A DNA stretch of 15,546 nt. Source: Gammaproteobacteria bacterium. GTDB lineage: Bacteria > Pseudomonadota > Gammaproteobacteria > Pseudomonadales > Pseudohongiellaceae. The notes below the pieces were generated by a model. It did not search any database. It saw only the letters and a program-made list of their open reading frames with translations, and was not told where the DNA came from. Of the stretch, positions 3,516 to 11,930 are shown in pieces. The position numbers and the translations under genes are program-made. The stretch spans positions 1-15,546 of the forward strand of contig DMJN01000335.1 in the NCBI GenBank assembly GCA_003451715.1, written 5' to 3'. Position 1 is the first letter of the stretch. Every line of letters begins with the position of its first letter.

Positions 3516-5270
3516 ATGATTAGAAAACATTGCCGAGTCTTGCTCACCGCTTTGTCTATGCTGTTTTCAATCCAAGCACTGGCTGCTTCCAATTGCGCAA
3601 GCGATGAGTACGAGACTGAAAATGGCGCCTGCTACCCGGTCTGGCATGGAGAGACCGCCAGCGGAGCCTACTACACTATTGCCAGACCTGCGGACTGGAC
3701 AGCGGCAGACGGCCTGGTCATCTGGAACCATGGCTTTCAGAGTTTTATGACCGGCTTCGAGGCTACCGACTTGCTCTCCCTGCTTAACCCCTCCTGGGAT
3801 GGCTACTACACCGGTGATGTTCAAGACGAACCCGGACTGGGCCCCTATGCGGAAACCATTCTTTCGGAAGGCTATGCGCTCGCCGCATCCAGTTACAGCC
3901 AGACAGGTTGGGCCGTGTTCGACTCGCATATTTCCAATGGCGAACTGTATAACCAGTTCCTCACCCTGGTAGCCAGCGAAGGCCTGGAAGCACCTCAGCA
4001 GTTTTATATCGTTGGCGCGTCACTGGGTGGCATTGTTACCATTCGCGATTTGGAATCCGATCTGCTTCCCGATCCGGATGGCTCCCTGATTCTCTGTGGC
4101 GCCGTGGCCGGCTCGATAAACTGGTTTGAAGCGTTCGATCTGCGCATGATCTACGAATCTGTCTGTGAGGCCGTTCCCGGTGCCGATCTACCCCAGCCCT
4201 GGTATGAGCGCCCGGAACTGTTATTCGGTGAAATTGAGTTTCTCGACTCGCTGGATAAATGTACCAGCATCAGCACCCGCTTGTTGATCGATGAGAACGA
4301 TCCGCTGGAGGTGTTCGCCTGGGAACTGCAGAACCCGGATGCCGCAGACCGACTGGAAGAGATACTGGAGACTTCCGACACACGAAATATTTACTTCCTG
4401 GGTTTGAATCTCTGGTACGCGGTGTTTCAAATCCCCAGATTGATTAATGACGAGTCACAGTTAAACGGACTCATTCCATTGCAGAATAGCGGCATCGATT
4501 ACGACGATGGCTCGGTCAATCAGGCTGCCCTACGCACAGTCGCACTACCCTCAGCAAGGGAGCTACTGCTGGAAAACTACACGCCCACCGGCAACATCGG
4601 TGCCACCAAAATTGTATCCATTCATACCTCACACGATGGGCTGGTTAAGGTGCAGAACCAGATGGCGCTCATCGACGCCTTGCCGGCAAATCAACTCACG
4701 GTTGGCATCGTGAATGACTCCGAGAGCCCCAGCCACTGCGGATTTAGCGTCGATGAAGGCCTCGCCGCCTGGCACGAACTCACCGACTGGGTGAATGGCG
4801 GCCCACAACCCAGCCCGCTGGACCTGGAATTGAATTGCCTGGCCACGGCAAGCGATGAAGACGACTGCAACTACGACCCCTCCCTCAACGTGTCCACCGC
4901 ATTACCGACTTTCAAACGCAGCGAAGCAGTAGCCGTCACCGGTAACAATAGCTATGACAGCACAAGCGGTGAATTGTATCTGCAGTCTCTGCAACTCCTG
5001 GGCACCGACACCACTTATGACCTGGTCCTGCAACCCCCGGCAGCGGGCAGTTCACTGTTTACCATCAAGAGCCTCAACGAAACCGGCTCGACGCCAATCT
5101 GGCAACACAGCTCGGCCTTCGATGGGAATCAGTCACTGCTTTATGTGCCACGCGTAAACGTACTCAACGTCTCACCACCCGATGGCAATGAGTACGATGT
5201 CTATATGCAGTTAAAAAATGTGGGGGATGTCGATGGGCTGGAATTTATCGAATTTGAAGTAACACCTTAA
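3516..5270 (+). CDS. Secreted alpha/beta-hydrolase (esterase/depolymerase-like)
   Basis: The 584-residue precursor starts with a signal peptide (MIRKH, a hydrophobic core, then ALA-A near residue 23), so the enzyme is exported. The catalytic core has WNHGFQS (His72-Gly73, oxyanion region), the nucleophile elbow VGASLGG with Ser169, a likely acid Asp374 in HTSHDGLV, and a likely base His407 in SPSHCGF. This order, and the HDGLV and SHCGF motifs, resemble secreted esterases, PHB-depolymerase-like and tannase-like hydrolases. The region from about 440 to 584 is rich in beta residues, Asn and Thr, has no recognised catalytic motif, and may be a C-terminal beta-sandwich or attachment domain. Several cysteines (27, 39, 194, 217, 249, 408, 441, 451) could form disulfides. 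The start is set by the signal peptide. The bases just upstream (CCCTCCT) are not a Shine-Dalgarno sequence. Substrate unknown; hydrolase call strong. Confidence 0.85.
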   Translation: MIRKHCRVLLTALSMLFSIQALAASNCASDEYETENGACYPVWHGETASGAYYTIARPADWTAADGLVIWNHGFQSFMTGFEATDLLSLLNPSWDGYYTGDVQDEPGLGPYAETILSEGYALAASSYSQTGWAVFDSHISNGELYNQFLTLVASEGLEAPQQFYIVGASLGGIVTIRDLESDLLPDPDGSLILCGAVAGSINWFEAFDLRMIYESVCEAVPGADLPQPWYERPELLFGEIEFLDSLDKCTSISTRLLIDENDPLEVFAWELQNPDAADRLEEILETSDTRNIYFLGLNLWYAVFQIPRLINDESQLNGLIPLQNSGIDYDDGSVNQAALRTVALPSARELLLENYTPTGNIGATKIVSIHTSHDGLVKVQNQMALIDALPANQLTVGIVNDSESPSHCGFSVDEGLAAWHELTDWVNGGPQPSPLDLELNCLATASDEDDCNYDPSLNVSTALPTFKRSEAVAVTGNNSYDSTSGELYLQSLQLLGTDTTYDLVLQPPAAGSSLFTIKSLNETGSTPIWQHSSAFDGNQSLLYVPRVNVLNVSPPDGNEYDVYMQLKNVGDVDGLEFIEFEVTP

Positions 5271-5325: not shown

Positions 5326-5378
5326 AATCAATTATTCTTTTTGCACAAATTCCCCCCTTAAAAACTCTTCAAGACAAC

Positions 5379-5393
5379 GAGGAGATTATGTGA
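5379..5393 (+). promoter_or_regulatory. Translation start of sigma gene with overlapping ATG-TGA
   Basis: GAGGAG (5379-5384) is the ribosome site. An ATG at 5388 is followed at once by TGA, while the GTG at 5390 opens the sigma reading frame. The GTG is five bases from the ribosome site and is the only sensible start, because the next Met codon is residue 121. The ATG-stop pair overlaps it and could compete for initiation. Confidence 0.5.
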
Positions 5394-5881
5394 GCAAGAA
5401 CAGGCTTCTGGAAGAGCTGGCCGCCATCTTTGCACAGAAGCAACGGCAGCTTTATGTAGCGGCATTGGCCATCACCCGAGAGCGCAGCAGCGCCGAGGAC
5501 TCCGTGCATGATGCTCTGTTGGCAATCGCAGCGTTGCAGCAGCGGCCCCAGAATCTCGAGGCTTATCTGTATCGCACGGTGCGCAATAAAGCGTTACACA
5601 GGTTGAAACACACGAATCGATTCGATCGCAACATCAATCCAGGGGATTTTCTCGATGTACAGGAGTGTTCATCCTCACAAAAGATTCTGGCAAATCAGGT
5701 AATTGAGCGCCTGTCCACGCTGGAAGAAAATTCAAGGCAGACTCTGATCATGAAACTGTTTGCCGATCTCACCTTTGCCGAGATCGCCAACATCATGGAA
5801 AGCTCACCCAACACTGCCGCTTCCTGGTACCACCGCAGTATCGAAAAACTGAAGGAGGAAATGTATGAACAGCAATTCTAA
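5390..5881 (+). CDS. ECF-type RNA polymerase sigma factor
   Basis: This 163-residue protein has the two-domain layout of extracytoplasmic-function sigma factors, which direct RNA polymerase to a small regulon in response to an envelope signal. Region 2 spans about residues 18-75, with the typical acidic-helix pattern SAEDSVHDALLAI and then NLEAYLYRTVRNKALHRLKH, where -10 recognition is expected. Region 4 spans about 105-157: IERLSTLEENSRQTLIMKLF, then a helix-turn-helix (FAEIANIMESSPNTAASWYHRSIEKLK) for -35 binding. The start is GTG. The last 17 bases overlap the next gene, whose ribosome site AGGAGG (5853-5858) lies inside the sigma frame, so the two are probably translationally coupled. Sigma and anti-sigma genes are commonly arranged this way. 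I did not find a clear ECF-type autoregulatory promoter in the 119-base spacer upstream. Confidence 0.92.
   Translation: MSKNRLLEELAAIFAQKQRQLYVAALAITRERSSAEDSVHDALLAIAALQQRPQNLEAYLYRTVRNKALHRLKHTNRFDRNINPGDFLDVQECSSSQKILANQVIERLSTLEENSRQTLIMKLFADLTFAEIANIMESSPNTAASWYHRSIEKLKEEMYEQQF
5853..5858 (+). promoter_or_regulatory. Strong ribosome site inside sigma gene for the DsbA-like gene
   Basis: AGGAGG lies six bases before the ATG at 5865 and within the last codons of the sigma gene. It fixes the start of the downstream gene and supports coupled translation. The nearer ATG at 5861 is a sigma-frame Met codon only two bases from this site. Confidence 0.7.
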
Positions 5882-6707
5882 TGATGATCCTTCTGAATTA
5901 GAACGAGAACTGAGTGCGTTCACGCTGGTCAAACCCACGCCAGGCTATGCCACGCGCGCCGAAGAACTTTTGGTCGCCCAACAAGAGACTCGACGAAAAT
6001 TCTGGCTGCCTTATGCTGGCCTGGCCACAGCCGCCCTGGTGCTGGTGGCAGCTGTCATAGGCCTGCCGAAGCTCTGGGAAGAGCGCACCGCCATTGATAA
6101 TCAATTGGTGGATAATTCTTCATTTTCGATTCCTGAGGTCACAGCTCAGTTACAGCGATCTTACGAATCGGGCGTTCACTACCAGGAACTCGAGCCCCCC
6201 ATTCCCCTGGAGGAGATGACAGAGGATGAGATCAGATATTACTTCTCCTACCACTGCAATCCCTGTTATCAGTTCGAAGAAATACTGGAGGAGTGGTACG
6301 AACCAGAGCTGGATGAGTTTTCTTTCATTCGGATTCCCGCCATCTGGTCTGACGAGATGCGCCATTATGCCCAGGTGTTTTTTCTGGCAGAAGAATTTGG
6401 TGTTCTCGATCGTGCCCACGGGCTGATCTTCGAATCACTGCACGAATCAGGCGAGCGCCTCGATGACCTGCCGAGCCTGATACGCTTCTTTAGCCGATTG
6501 GGAATTTCACAACCACGAGTGATCGCGATGTTTAACTCAGAGGAAATGATGGAACGAGTCCGGGAAACCGAACAATCCAATCGCGACTATTCCGTTCAGT
6601 CCACGCCCATGCTGGTGGTTAACCGGCGCTATATGGTGCAGCCTAACCAAGAGGTGGGGCAGACGCAGATGTTGAGGATTGCGGAGTACTTAGTAGAAAA
6701 TCAGTAA
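5865..6707 (+). CDS. Membrane-anchored DsbA-like protein with anti-sigma-like N-terminus
   Basis: The 280-residue protein has three parts. Residues 1-46 are cytoplasmic, acidic and then basic (DDPSELERELSAFTLVKP and RAEELLVAQQETRRKFW), the length and character of the short sigma-binding tail of membrane anti-sigma factors. No HxxxCxxC zinc motif is present. Residues about 47-68 form one membrane helix. Residues about 120-280 are a periplasmic DsbA-type thioredoxin domain: YYFSYHCNPCYQFEEILEEW with redox Cys131 and Cys134 (CNPC in place of CPHC), an inserted helical region, and the cis-proline loop VQSTPMLVVNRRYMV (Pro248). The match to E. coli DsbA around the active site (FFSF-CPHC-YQFEE) and near the C-terminus (GVPAMFVNGKY) is close. 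The gene overlaps the ECF sigma gene by 17 bases. I infer a redox-responsive anti-sigma factor; the alternative is an ordinary anchored oxidoreductase in the sigma operon. Confidence 0.88.
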   Translation: MNSNSNDDPSELERELSAFTLVKPTPGYATRAEELLVAQQETRRKFWLPYAGLATAALVLVAAVIGLPKLWEERTAIDNQLVDNSSFSIPEVTAQLQRSYESGVHYQELEPPIPLEEMTEDEIRYYFSYHCNPCYQFEEILEEWYEPELDEFSFIRIPAIWSDEMRHYAQVFFLAEEFGVLDRAHGLIFESLHESGERLDDLPSLIRFFSRLGISQPRVIAMFNSEEMMERVRETEQSNRDYSVQSTPMLVVNRRYMVQPNQEVGQTQMLRIAEYLVENQ

Positions 6708-6713
6708 GCTGGC

Positions 6714-6757
6714 GGGGATAGACCACGATTATGTGTGTCAAATCGTGGTCTGTCCCC
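6714..6757. repeat. REP-like palindrome between convergent genes
   Basis: The arms GGGGATAGACCACGATT and AATCGTGGTCTGTCCCC pair over 17 positions with one G-T wobble around a ten-base loop, ATGTGTGTCA. It lies six bases after the DsbA-like stop and seven bases from the stop of the gene on the opposite strand. It may protect both mRNA ends. No T-tract follows on either strand. Confidence 0.85.
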
Positions 6758-7418: not shown

Positions 7419-7466
7419 CGGGGATAGACCACCCTCGCGCTCTTGGTTAATGGTGGTCTATCCCTG
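7419..7466. repeat. REP-like palindrome after the CPBP gene
   Basis: CGGGGATAGACCACC (7419-7433) pairs with GGTGGTCTATCCCTG (7452-7466) over 15 positions with one G-T wobble and an 18-base loop. The arms match the 6714-6757 element, but the loop does not. It begins six bases beyond the stop codon of the minus-strand CPBP gene. Confidence 0.8.
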
Positions 7467-7472
7467 TTTTTC

Positions 7473-8207
7473 CTAGACGATAATCGACTCTCCCAGATAG
7501 AGCTGGGTGACAAGCAAGAGATGTCCTGCCGAGTGCGCCAGGATGACAATCCACAGGTTTCGGCCGCAGAGCAGATAGGCAGTGCCCCAGACGATTCCCA
7601 TGATGAAGGTCATGATCATGCCGCCGATGCCCCACTGAAAATGGATCGAACCGAAGACGAGCGCCTGAATCAGGACTGTCATGAAGGCACCGGCAGCATC
7701 CTGTTCGAAATTCTCTGAGAGCCGCCCCATGAGAAAACCCCGATAGATCACCTCTTCGGGGATTGATGCGGTCAGTGGCAGGACCAGTGCCATGAAGATG
7801 GCAGCACCGAGGTTCCCGGAAATCGAATCGTAGCGGGACAGATCCGGCTCCGGCAGGTCGATGAACATTGAAATCAACAACGGCGCCAGGCTCTGGGCCG
7901 CTATGAAGACAATCAGGATGCCGGCCACTTGCAAGGGCACAGTTGCCCAGCGCTGGGGTCGCCTGAATCCCAGATCCGTGAGGCTGCCGCCGCGGGCCAG
8001 AACAACGCCGACTGCAGCGAAAGCACCGGCGAGGACGGAGAACGCGCCACGAATTTCCGTTGCGAAAGGCATCCATCCCTGGGCAATGGCAAGATCCTCA
8101 AGATAAAAGACGAGGGCTGTCACCGCCACGACGATCATGATATCGATAATGAGTTTTGTTGGTTGCGTCATATTGGGCGTGTTGTAAACAGTGGATACAT
8201 TAGCCAT
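7473..8207 (-). CDS. CPBP-family intramembrane metalloprotease (CAAX/Abi type)
   Basis: This is a polytopic protein of 244-247 residues with all the CPBP motifs. Numbering from the longer start, these are EEVIYRG (Glu154, Glu155, Arg159), FGSIHF (His192) and WIVILAHSAGH (His228), which form the metal site within the membrane. About six to seven hydrophobic segments are visible. Bacterial members cleave membrane or prenylated proteins, process or protect against bacteriocins, or have no known substrate. The Met codon at 8207 is preferred because GGAG (8217-8220, minus strand) is nine bases from it. The Met at 8216 would abut that site directly. The gene is divergent from a TetR regulator, with operator-like repeats between them, so it is the most likely regulatory target. 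Family call firm; substrate unknown. Confidence 0.92.
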   Translation of the reverse strand: MANVSTVYNTPNMTQPTKLIIDIMIVVAVTALVFYLEDLAIAQGWMPFATEIRGAFSVLAGAFAAVGVVLARGGSLTDLGFRRPQRWATVPLQVAGILIVFIAAQSLAPLLISMFIDLPEPDLSRYDSISGNLGAAIFMALVLPLTASIPEEVIYRGFLMGRLSENFEQDAAGAFMTVLIQALVFGSIHFQWGIGGMIMTFIMGIVWGTAYLLCGRNLWIVILAHSAGHLLLVTQLYLGESIIV

Positions 8208-9144: not shown

Positions 9145-10863
9145 ATGAGAAAATTAATCACCTTAGGATTGTTTACGATGTTGGCCCTGGTGCCAGCATT
9201 GTCCAGCGCCGCCGATCGAGTAGGCGATTTCACCCTGCTGGATCAGCAGGGTTATTCCCACACAATGAGTTGGTATGACGACCACGCTGCAATTGCCTTC
9301 CTGATACAGGCTAATGGCACCGTAGTCCCCACAAGCACGAGACGTGAGTTTGCGGCATTGCAAACTCGCTTTGATGATCAGGGAATCGAGTTTTTTATGC
9401 TTAATCCCACTGGCACTCAGGACCGCGCTTCTGTGATAGCGGATATGGGGCGCCATGGCAGCAACATGGCGGTTCTAATTGATGATACACAGTTAATTTC
9501 CGAGGCCCTGGGCGTAGACAAGGCCGGGGAAGTCTTTCTCTTTGATCCCAAGACATTTACTGTCGAATTTCGTGGCCCGGTTGGCGCCGAGTTTGAAGCA
9601 GCCCTGGTGGCCAAACTGGCAGGGCAGCCAATTGCCAACCCTGTGGTGGCAACCACGGGAGAAGCTATAGCCTTTCCGGCCAGAGACGCTCACGATCGAG
9701 TCACACCTTCCTACGAAACAGAAATTGCTCCCCTCATTCTGGAGAATTGCGCCAGCTGTCACCATGAGGGCGCCGTTGGACCATTTGCGATGGACAGTCA
9801 CAGCATGATGCAGGCGTGGTCACCTATGATTCGTGAGGTATTGATGACCAAGCGTATGCCTCCCGGTCAGATCGACCCGCACATTGGCGACTTCGTCAAT
9901 GACGGTTTGGTGGGAGACAGCAATGTCCAGAAAATATTGCACTGGATAGCCGCAGGTTCGCCAAGAGACGGCGACTCAGACCCATTGGCAGATAAGGTCT
10001 GGCCAGCAACCAAATGGGCCTTTGGTGAACCTGACTACATCATCAAGATTCCACCAAAATCAATACCTGCTACCGGTGAGATTCCCTATTTATATGACAC
10101 CACCGCAGCCATCGACATTGGCAAGGATCGCTGGGTACGTGCCAGCCAGTATATCGCCGGTGACCCCGGGGTATTACACCATACCCTTCACCGCATCATC
10201 CCACCGGAAAATGCCGGACAGGGCCGCGGCTACAGAAATCCTGGTGCTGGCGATACCGGTAGTCCAGGTCTTTCGCCTTATGTGCCTGGCGCTGAGCCCC
10301 GTATGAATCCTCCTAACACCGGGGGGCTGTTGCGCGACGGTTCCGAACTTGCGGTGCAACTGCACTACACCGCCAATGGTCAGGAAACTGTGGACGCCGG
10401 TGAGATCGGAGTCTGGTTTTATCCAGAAGGTGAGGTGCCTGAGGAAAGAATGTCTGGTCAGTGTGCCTGCATATTCACTCCTACCTGGACTGACATTCCG
10501 GCCCACGATCCGGATTTTGTTCAGACATCCAGCATAACCCTGACCGGGGATGTGGAACTGTACAGTTTCCTCTCGCACATGCACTTCCGTGGCAAGTACA
10601 TGCGCTTCTACGCCGACTATCCGGACGGCACCAGCGAGGAACTGATCAACATCGCCAAGTATGATTACGCCTGGCAGTGGGCTTATACCTATGAAGAGCC
10701 AAAATTCATGCCGGCAGGGACCGTTCTGACAGCCGTGGGTGGCTTCGATAATTCTGCTCAGAACCCTAGTAATCCTGACCCGACTATTCCTATAAGCTGG
10801 GGCCAGCAGAGCTGGGATGAGATGTTCTTCGGCGCCATGCAGTGGAAAGAGGTTAACCGGTGA
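9145..10863 (+). CDS. Redoxin-cytochrome c-PHM-like copper monooxygenase fusion
   Basis: The 572-residue precursor has a signal peptide (about 1-22, LSSAA) and three modules. Residues about 24-160 resemble a peroxiredoxin/TlpA-type domain (VGDFTLLDQQG, IEFFMLNPTG, EVFLFDPKT), but the active-site region QANGTVVPTSTR has no cysteine. Residues about 185-275 are a mono-haem cytochrome c with CASCH (Cys202, Cys205, His206) and a probable distal Met238 in KRMPPG. Residues about 295-570 resemble the type II copper monooxygenases PHM and dopamine beta-monooxygenase: His345-His346 and His407 (LHYT) for the CuH site, and His478, His480 (SHMHFRGK) and Met560 (SWDEM) for CuM. The order matches PHM's H107/H108/H172 and H242/H244/M314. 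Ribosome site GAGGAG is six bases before the ATG, and a terminator follows. The haem domain may replace ascorbate as electron donor. Substrate unknown. Confidence 0.9.
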   Translation: MRKLITLGLFTMLALVPALSSAADRVGDFTLLDQQGYSHTMSWYDDHAAIAFLIQANGTVVPTSTRREFAALQTRFDDQGIEFFMLNPTGTQDRASVIADMGRHGSNMAVLIDDTQLISEALGVDKAGEVFLFDPKTFTVEFRGPVGAEFEAALVAKLAGQPIANPVVATTGEAIAFPARDAHDRVTPSYETEIAPLILENCASCHHEGAVGPFAMDSHSMMQAWSPMIREVLMTKRMPPGQIDPHIGDFVNDGLVGDSNVQKILHWIAAGSPRDGDSDPLADKVWPATKWAFGEPDYIIKIPPKSIPATGEIPYLYDTTAAIDIGKDRWVRASQYIAGDPGVLHHTLHRIIPPENAGQGRGYRNPGAGDTGSPGLSPYVPGAEPRMNPPNTGGLLRDGSELAVQLHYTANGQETVDAGEIGVWFYPEGEVPEERMSGQCACIFTPTWTDIPAHDPDFVQTSSITLTGDVELYSFLSHMHFRGKYMRFYADYPDGTSEELINIAKYDYAWQWAYTYEEPKFMPAGTVLTAVGGFDNSAQNPSNPDPTIPISWGQQSWDEMFFGAMQWKEVNR

Positions 10864-11156: not shown

Positions 11157-11930
11157 ATGAGACAAATAGCACTGATCGCAATAATGCTTATCGGTTCACC
11201 GGTATTAGTGTACGCAGATTCATGCAACTACGAGAAGGATATCGAATTCACCGTCGACGCAGCCCGCGCACAGAACTTACTGGTAGACGTGGGGGCGGGC
11301 GAACTGGTCATTCGCGGTGATGCCAGCAGCAGTGAGATCGTGGTTTCCGCACAGGCTTGTGCCAGCAGTAGAAACAGATTGGATGACCTGGATTTACGAC
11401 ATCGGCTGAGGGGATCGGATATTGAAATTTATACAGAATTTTATCAAAACCGGCGCCTCTTCTCCTGGTGGGGTTCAGGAAGATCCCGCATCGATATCGA
11501 AATGACGGTTCCTTCGGAACTCGCACTGCGAGTCGACGATGGCAGTGGCGCGGTAACAATCAACGGTGTGGCGGCGCTGGACCTGAATGATGGCTCGGGG
11601 TCGATTCGGATCTCAGACATTGTGGGCGATGTATACATCAATGACGGTTCCGGTTCGATTGAAGTGAGCAATGTGTCCGGTCTGGTAGCGGTGGAGGATG
11701 GTTCTGGAGACATGCGGATCGTTGAAAGCAACGCGGTCCATATCATCGATGACGGATCGGGCGGTATTCGTATTGCGGATATCACTCAAAACGTCTACAT
11801 CGACGACGATGGATCGGGCGGCATCGATGTTCGAAATGTGGGAGGCGATGTGGAGATAGAGGACCACGGCTCGGGCGGAGTGAATGTTGATAACGTGGGC
11901 GGTAATTATTATCTGGATAGTGGTGGTTAG
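11157..11930 (+). CDS. Exported DUF4097-like beta-solenoid protein with DGSG repeats
   Basis: This is a 257-residue precursor with a signal peptide (MRQIALIAIMLIGSPVLVYA, 1-20). The following VDVGAGELVIRGDASSSEIVV resembles the DUF4097/head-GIN type of putative adhesin domain. From about residue 127 to the end, a unit of 17-19 residues repeats about seven times, each opening with DGSG (at 128, 145, 163, 181, 199 and 218; HGSG at 237) and continuing in alternating hydrophobic residues (xIxIxxIxGxVxI). This is the pattern of a right-handed beta-helix with a conserved turn. It is probably periplasmic or surface-bound; no enzymatic motif is seen. The ATG at 11157 is chosen over an in-frame ATG at 11079 because it begins the signal peptide and has GGGG six bases upstream. 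A strong terminator follows. DUF4097 proteins often sit near sigma/anti-sigma genes, but none adjoins it here. Confidence 0.82.
   Translation: MRQIALIAIMLIGSPVLVYADSCNYEKDIEFTVDAARAQNLLVDVGAGELVIRGDASSSEIVVSAQACASSRNRLDDLDLRHRLRGSDIEIYTEFYQNRRLFSWWGSGRSRIDIEMTVPSELALRVDDGSGAVTINGVAALDLNDGSGSIRISDIVGDVYINDGSGSIEVSNVSGLVAVEDGSGDMRIVESNAVHIIDDGSGGIRIADITQNVYIDDDGSGGIDVRNVGGDVEIEDHGSGGVNVDNVGGNYYLDSGG

Follow-up and report, generated by a model that had tools for sequence, protein, structure and literature searches.

The window, by which we mean the whole stretch of 15,546 nt of Gammaproteobacteria DNA analyzed here, contains a short two-gene operon on its forward strand. The first gene (5390..5881) encodes an ECF sigma factor of 163 aa: regions 2 and 4 were recognized over the Pfam cut-offs (PF04542, E = 2e-7; PF08281, E = 1.3e-8), region 3 gave no Pfam match, the NCBIfam model TIGR02937 was also over cut-off, and the assignment is in agreement with the sigma factor tree described below. 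The second gene (5865..6707) encodes a protein of 280 aa that matches DSBA (PF01323) over the curated Pfam cut-off and that we predict to be a membrane anti-sigma factor with a periplasmic DsbA-fold domain. The ORF coordinates (5390-5881 and 5865-6707) agree with the overlap of 17 nt (5865..5881) reported in the initial annotation, which suggests that the two genes are translationally coupled. The same annotation had described the second protein as a short tail, a single helix and a DsbA fold keeping CNPC (131-134) and Pro248, and each of these parts was recovered. The N-terminal tail (residues 1-46; 5865..6002), predicted to be the cytoplasmic anti-sigma domain, carries the consensus E..L....L..P...Y. 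It is followed by one membrane helix (residues 50-68; 6012..6068), predicted from hydropathy and flanking K/R residues, and by the DsbA-fold domain, predicted to be periplasmic (residues 99-280; 6159..6704). This domain contains the CNPC active-site dithiol formed by C131 and C134 (6255..6266) and an S-T-cisPro loop (residues 246-248; 6600..6608). All these features lie on the forward strand, as does a promoter-like element, TGCACAA-N15-ACTCT (5342..5368), located 21 nt 5' of the sigma start codon.

Several other sequences surround this operon. Just 3' of it lies an inverted repeat assigned to neither strand (6714..6757; GGGGATAGACCACGATT), with arms of 17 nt that are 94% complementary and a loop of 10 nt, which could represent a terminator or a repeat element. 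Directly 5' of the operon, positions 3516-5270 encode a protein of 584 aa with a signal-like start and no Pfam or NCBIfam match. Further downstream, a protein of 572 aa (9145-10863) starts with an AhpC/TSA redoxin domain and continues with a long C-terminal part lacking any Pfam match over cut-off; a fragment at positions 7432-7998 of locus L046 resembles this protein, as judged by eye. Finally, positions 11157-11930 encode a protein in which DDGSG/GSG units are repeated, which could form a beta-helix, and again without a Pfam match over cut-off.

We scanned genome contigs with an alignment of five sigma sequences and obtained 14 loci, of which 11 contain close relatives (43-55% identical) and three (L058-L060) contain distant ECF sigma factors. 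Within the window's family, sigma matches were found in 14 of the 137 genomes searched, namely those of the window, the 11 close loci, L102 (genome G107) and a broken copy in G150. The sigma clade is thereby represented by 13 intact operons, distributed over three genera and all within the window's family. The phylogenetic tree separates the 13 sigma factors of this clade from nine other ECF sigma factors (support 99/96), and they may belong to an existing ECF group. In all 13 intact operons, the second gene overlaps the sigma gene on the same strand (by 8-32 nt in 12 loci including the window, and by 8 nt in L102), which bears out the position of an anti-sigma gene ascribed to it by the initial annotation.

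Two architectures account for nearly all these operons. Six loci encode the fused protein: the window, L047 (G017), L048 (G141), L049 (G025), L050 (G132) and L057 (G151). Another six are split, with an anti-sigma gene lacking the DsbA domain followed by a separate DsbA gene: L051 (G073), L053 (G112), L054 (G131), L055 (G035), L056 (G113) and L102 (G107). The gap between anti-sigma and DsbA genes is 21-60 nt in five split loci and 5 nt in L102, and the start of the split DsbA proteins looks like a signal peptide when judged by eye. The remaining operon, L052 (G012), has neither a fused nor an adjacent DsbA, and its anti-sigma factor contains CQDC. DsbA is thus fused or encoded by the next gene in 12 of the 13 intact operons, although these operons share descent and do not represent 12 independent events. 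The broken copy of G150 (L103; G150:C62:5000-11752) is a decayed operon of the split type at about positions 3700-5060, in which the remnants of sigma, anti-sigma and dsbA are all disrupted, as if they had been lost as a unit; the exact promoter pattern was not found there.

The fused proteins were detected in 6 of the 137 family genomes, every one of them in the window's genus. Outside the family, we found no sigma factor of the clade in 390 genomes of the order apart from those of the window and G151, none in 360 genomes of the class apart from that of the window, and no fused protein in 381 genomes of the order other than those of the window and G151. These searches of the order and class relied on strict thresholds (1e-22; 1e-62) and on scoring the best 6 to 10 candidates per genome, so more distant relatives may exist. 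The seven pattern matches in viral contigs included no relative.

We then asked what the second protein shares with its counterparts in the other operons. The N-terminal tails of the fused and non-fused proteins are related and follow the consensus given above, with single members differing at one or two places: across the 13 proteins, M1, L16 and L21 are invariant and E13 and P24 nearly so. A profile built from the seven non-fused tails ranked all six fused tails over 714 background N-termini, five of them with E < 1e-3 and L057 at 0.15. Reciprocally, the profile of the fused tails ranked all seven non-fused tails over the same number of background N-termini; five reached E < 1e-3 and L056 was marginal (E = 1.3 vs 1.5 for the background). 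This pattern of conservation is the one expected of a sigma-binding domain whose sensors can be exchanged. The anti-sigma reading of the initial annotation is therefore well supported by a tail that is homologous across proteins of the same clade whose periplasmic parts are quite different, and we infer that the tail binds sigma at the membrane. The window tail had no Pfam match and a sequence search of the PDB returned just three unrelated matches (E = 1.6-4.1), while a profile of six non-fused anti-sigma factors gave no PDB match and a single Pfam match at chance level (E = 0.063). The structure model of the tail region contains helices at residues 9-17 and 27-64, with a pLDDT mostly under 50; a model of the split anti-sigma factor (L055 plus three relatives) had a mean pLDDT of 34 and was useless.

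Judged by hydropathy alone, the window protein has an N-terminal domain, predicted to be cytoplasmic, and one membrane helix. Residues 50-68 form its one stretch over 1.6, with a hydropathy of 2.04 over 19 residues, and are preceded by three K/R residues and followed by two. K/R residues before the helix outnumber those after it in 12 of the 13 anti-sigma factors, L052 being tied at 0/0. The helix is weak in L054 (hydropathy 1.59) and L055 (1.46), and the L056 protein presents a second, weaker hydrophobic stretch, so the topology is not equally clear in all 13.

We further analyzed the DsbA domains by comparing 76 of them: the six fused, the six split and 64 others taken from the loci of our DsbA searches and from 20 further genome stretches. 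The window domain presents the thioredoxin fold with helical insertion, the CxxC and the cis-Pro of DsbA (PF01323), and a proline occupies the cis-Pro column in all 76 rows of the alignment. Among the fused proteins, C131, C134, P248 and the STP of the loop are invariant (6/6), the other five being 28-33% identical to that of the window. The active site is nevertheless distinct from that of ordinary DsbA proteins. The motif CxPC was found in 6/6 fused domains (dipeptides NP, WP or RP) and in none of the six split or 64 other DsbAs. The split ones all present CP[GHA]C, and the others, none of which has a proline before the second cysteine, mostly present CxHC or CPxC (44 are CSHC). Moreover, the Glu located six residues before the first cysteine is present in 64/64 other and 4/6 split DsbAs but in 0/6 fused ones, where Ala or Tyr replaces it (Tyr in the window, which hence has no acidic residue there). 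The redox behavior of DsbA depends on the CxxC dipeptide and on this Glu, and the combination of CxPC and a lost Glu predicts that the fused domain is less oxidizing. In line with this divergence, the NCBIfam DsbA models scored the window protein far under cut-off (37.6 vs 279 bits). The DsbA-type domain of the initial annotation thus holds for the fold, the CNPC and the cis-Pro, but the domain is no ordinary DsbA, being set apart from 64/64 others by its dipeptide and lost Glu.

The fused DsbA domains form a single clade with long branches (support 100/98), and the split ones fall into two groups; a partial duplicate (L100) was dropped from this tree, in which the bootstrap had not settled. 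Forcing fused and split DsbAs together cost 0.27 log units (AU test; P = 0.47; this test additionally omitted 27 of the 64 other DsbAs, four as long branches and the rest by thinning). A single origin of the sigma-linked DsbAs is neither shown nor rejected by these results. The window's domain is the longest branch within the fused clade, which could also mean relaxed constraint.

All 12 genomes with a sigma-linked DsbA possess another DsbA gene, which indicates that the sigma-linked one is an extra copy, and a DsbB gene over the Pfam cut-off is present in 13/13 genomes. A sigma factor of this profile was found in 12/12 sigma-linked loci and in 0/63 loci with other DsbA genes, 20 of the 63 being under 2.5 kb and hence offering little flank. 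The initial annotation would have been contradicted by homologs that mostly lack an adjacent sigma gene, and this is not what we observed: the fused homologs have an adjacent, overlapping sigma gene in 6/6 cases, and none was seen beside the 63 other DsbA genes. Further paralogous DsbAs in G012, G025, G157 and G131 were considered as sigma-linked cases and dropped, as their stretches of 12-13 kb contained no sigma gene.

The distribution of cysteines is the feature that extends to the entire clade. Beyond the helix, the cysteines of all 13 anti-sigma factors are even in number and never absent: there are two in 11 of the proteins and four in L048 and L050. In the fused type, two of these form the CxPC; in the split type, the two cysteines are far apart in sequence and one is at or next to the C-terminus. 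C131 and C134 are the only cysteines of the window protein, with none in residues 1-68, so its cytoplasmic domain is not of the zinc-binding type known from RsrA, RslA and ChrR. The common feature of the clade is thus a cysteine pair on the predicted periplasmic side, rather than DsbA as such. The periplasmic parts of the non-fused proteins offer two further observations. The anti-sigma factor of L052 (L052:4458-4967) has a short one with NCQDCH, a CxxCH resembling a haem c site, possibly by chance. Those of L053, L054, L055 and L056 share a conserved domain (FRFLCLTKT ... PSSLKRGGP or similar ... ECG) that had no Pfam match and, as part of the six-member profile, no PDB match.

The promoter-like element is similarly conserved. 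The sequence TGCACAA-N16-ACTCT was found 5' of sigma in 11 loci and occurs with N15 in the window, i.e., in 12 of the 13 intact loci; in the thirteenth (L052), TGCACAA-N16-ACTGG lies upstream of sigma. Between the element and the start codon lie 20-29 nt in 11 of these 12 loci and 54 nt in L057. The window contains one match of the promoter pattern, and any match was observed in only 1 of 200 shuffles. Across the 13 genomes, exact matches to TGCACAA-N14-17-ACTCT amount to 40 sites, relative to 7 for a reversed-pattern control. These 40 sites comprise the 12 sigma promoters and 28 others; G000, G017 and G025 have no site besides the sigma promoter. Since the other sites number about two per genome, the presence of the pattern just 5' of 12 of the 13 sigma genes is not due to chance. 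These results suggest that sigma autoregulates its own operon through the promoter-like element. We do not claim a regulon beyond the operon: the 28 other exact sites show no preference for N16 (7, 5, 8 and 8 sites for N14 to N17), and the 20 that we looked at by locus had no gene in common.

Taken together, these observations make it probable that the DsbA-fold periplasmic domain of the predicted membrane anti-sigma factor works as a dithiol/disulfide switch that would set the level of free ECF sigma factor. With somewhat less confidence, slightly short of even, we propose that the clade represents a modular anti-sigma family that reads the disulfide-forming capacity of the periplasm, with DsbA acting in trans as an operon partner or built in as the sensor, as a periplasmic mirror of the sigmaR-RsrA-thioredoxin loop. 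Under normal oxidizing conditions, the tail would hold sigma at the membrane while the DsbA/DsbB pathway keeps the dithiol as a disulfide. When the oxidizing capacity drops, the dithiol would become reduced, the anti-sigma factor would change shape or be cut, and the freed sigma would transcribe its own operon. In the six split operons, the separate CP[GHA]C DsbA would then re-oxidize the two cysteines of the anti-sigma factor, thereby completing a negative feedback circuit. In proteins of the fused type, the DsbA partner would have become part of the anti-sigma factor itself. The direction of the switch, with the reduced form being active, is the weakest step of the model. We prefer it for two reasons: in a split operon, sigma would then drive production of the very enzyme resetting its anti-sigma factor, as in the sigmaR regulon, and the active state of CadC is the one with its periplasmic cysteines reduced in the published passages considered below; the opposite direction, with the oxidized form active, is possible. 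Periplasmic redox control of sigma, as put forward by the initial annotation, gains from the even cysteines of 13/13 anti-sigma factors and from DsbA being the next gene in six operons, and it is still something we infer. Against the switch stand the tail, which resembles no known anti-sigma domain in sequence and whose model is of low confidence, and the L052 operon, the one among 13 without DsbA. The uneven clarity of the topology, the search for targets that found none beyond the operon, and the long branch of the window's domain count against it as well.

Other explanations of the same operon have to be considered. It is very improbable that the second gene simply encodes a membrane-anchored DsbA that is no anti-sigma factor and whose neighboring sigma gene is accidental or merely co-regulated. 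Such a reading would explain why no known anti-sigma domain was recognized, but proteins in the same operon position without any DsbA domain have a homologous tail, the gene overlap is found in 13/13 operons, and the fused DsbA occurs with sigma in 6/6. Alternatively, DsbA might be the effector of the system and not its sensor, with control residing in the tail plus another signal and the operon supplying a thiol oxidoreductase, membrane-tethered or secreted, when it is needed. A separate downstream DsbA gene in six operons is what one would expect of an output, and the operon is the sole conserved target that we saw. However, even numbers of cysteines lie beyond the helix in all 13 anti-sigma factors, including those with a separate DsbA, and the fused domain has lost some features of the ordinary enzyme in 6/6 cases, which makes a pure effector quite unlikely.

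We also regard as unlikely, if a little more credible, that the DsbA domain of the anti-sigma factor senses clients, i.e., that reduced or misfolded secreted proteins bind the groove or form a mixed disulfide and thereby free sigma. The cis-Pro lies near the client-binding side of DsbA. Both the fold and the position of this proline are kept in the fused proteins, in which the lost Glu and the altered dipeptide could favor trapping over turnover. Yet the non-fused anti-sigma factors have two cysteines and no DsbA domain, so the groove is not essential to the clade, whose common feature is the dithiol.

Under the disulfide switch that we favor, members of this small bacterial family probably adjust gene expression to the state of disulfides beyond the inner membrane. 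If this is true, transcription gives the cell a readout of oxidative protein folding in that compartment. The family offers what appears to be a single circuit in both a fused and a split version. Since the operon is short, the promoter-like element is conserved and just two cysteines have to be mutated, the idea lends itself to direct testing in a laboratory strain.

Among the matches listed in a literature search on anti-sigma factors combined with DsbA, thioredoxin or disulfide, there was neither a DsbA-containing anti-sigma factor nor one that reads the periplasmic disulfide state. Two candidates were set aside on the basis of the cited passages: Patrx2 of Pseudomonas aeruginosa is a thioredoxin in the AlgU regulon, under an ECF sigma factor, and is no part of an anti-sigma factor (PMC12830090), and the reported DSBA-like gene and ChrR are separate genes without fusion (PMC4681086). 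The fused domain resembles DsbA (PF01323) itself in its fold, its CxxC and the position of the cis-Pro, and differs from it by its CxPC, its lost Glu and its tether through an anti-sigma-like tail. According to the passages cited, the tails of class II anti-sigma factors of the CnrY-CnrH type use two helices to embrace the outside of sigma (PMC8103513, PMC7406223). The window tail is short as well, and two helices, before and into the membrane, are predicted here at low confidence; our sequence search of the PDB found no match between it and CnrY. RslA of Mycobacterium tuberculosis is similar in being a membrane-associated, redox-sensitive anti-sigma factor with a CXXC, but the cysteines of its CXXC coordinate zinc within the cytosolic anti-sigma domain, and the cited passages mention no thioredoxin-fold domain (PMC2877774).

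CadC of E. coli offers a parallel on the periplasmic side: in the passages available, it is a ToxR-like membrane regulator whose periplasmic disulfide tracks its activity, C208-C272 being oxidized when the regulator is inactive and reduced when it is active (PMC3096576). The same passages report that the activity of CadA was about doubled in dsbA, dsbB and dsbD deletions and that none of six single deletions of Dsb-type genes abolished regulation (PMC3096576), which indicates that Dsb enzymes are not necessarily required for a cysteine switch. In contrast to the pair described here, CadC is a membrane-integrated transcriptional activator and involves no sigma/anti-sigma pair. To our knowledge, it has no thioredoxin-fold domain either. 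The sigmaR-RsrA system of Streptomyces shares with our proposed circuit the use of thiol/disulfide chemistry in an anti-sigma factor. Thioredoxin itself resets RsrA. According to the cited passages, the sigmaR regulon serves to restore the redox balance of Streptomyces (PMC4960319). RsrA, however, is a cytoplasmic zinc-binding protein whose sigma-binding domain is the part that senses oxidation, whereas the window protein has its cysteines beyond the membrane helix and a tail without cysteine, and the enzyme associated with it is a DsbA, either fused or encoded by the adjacent gene.
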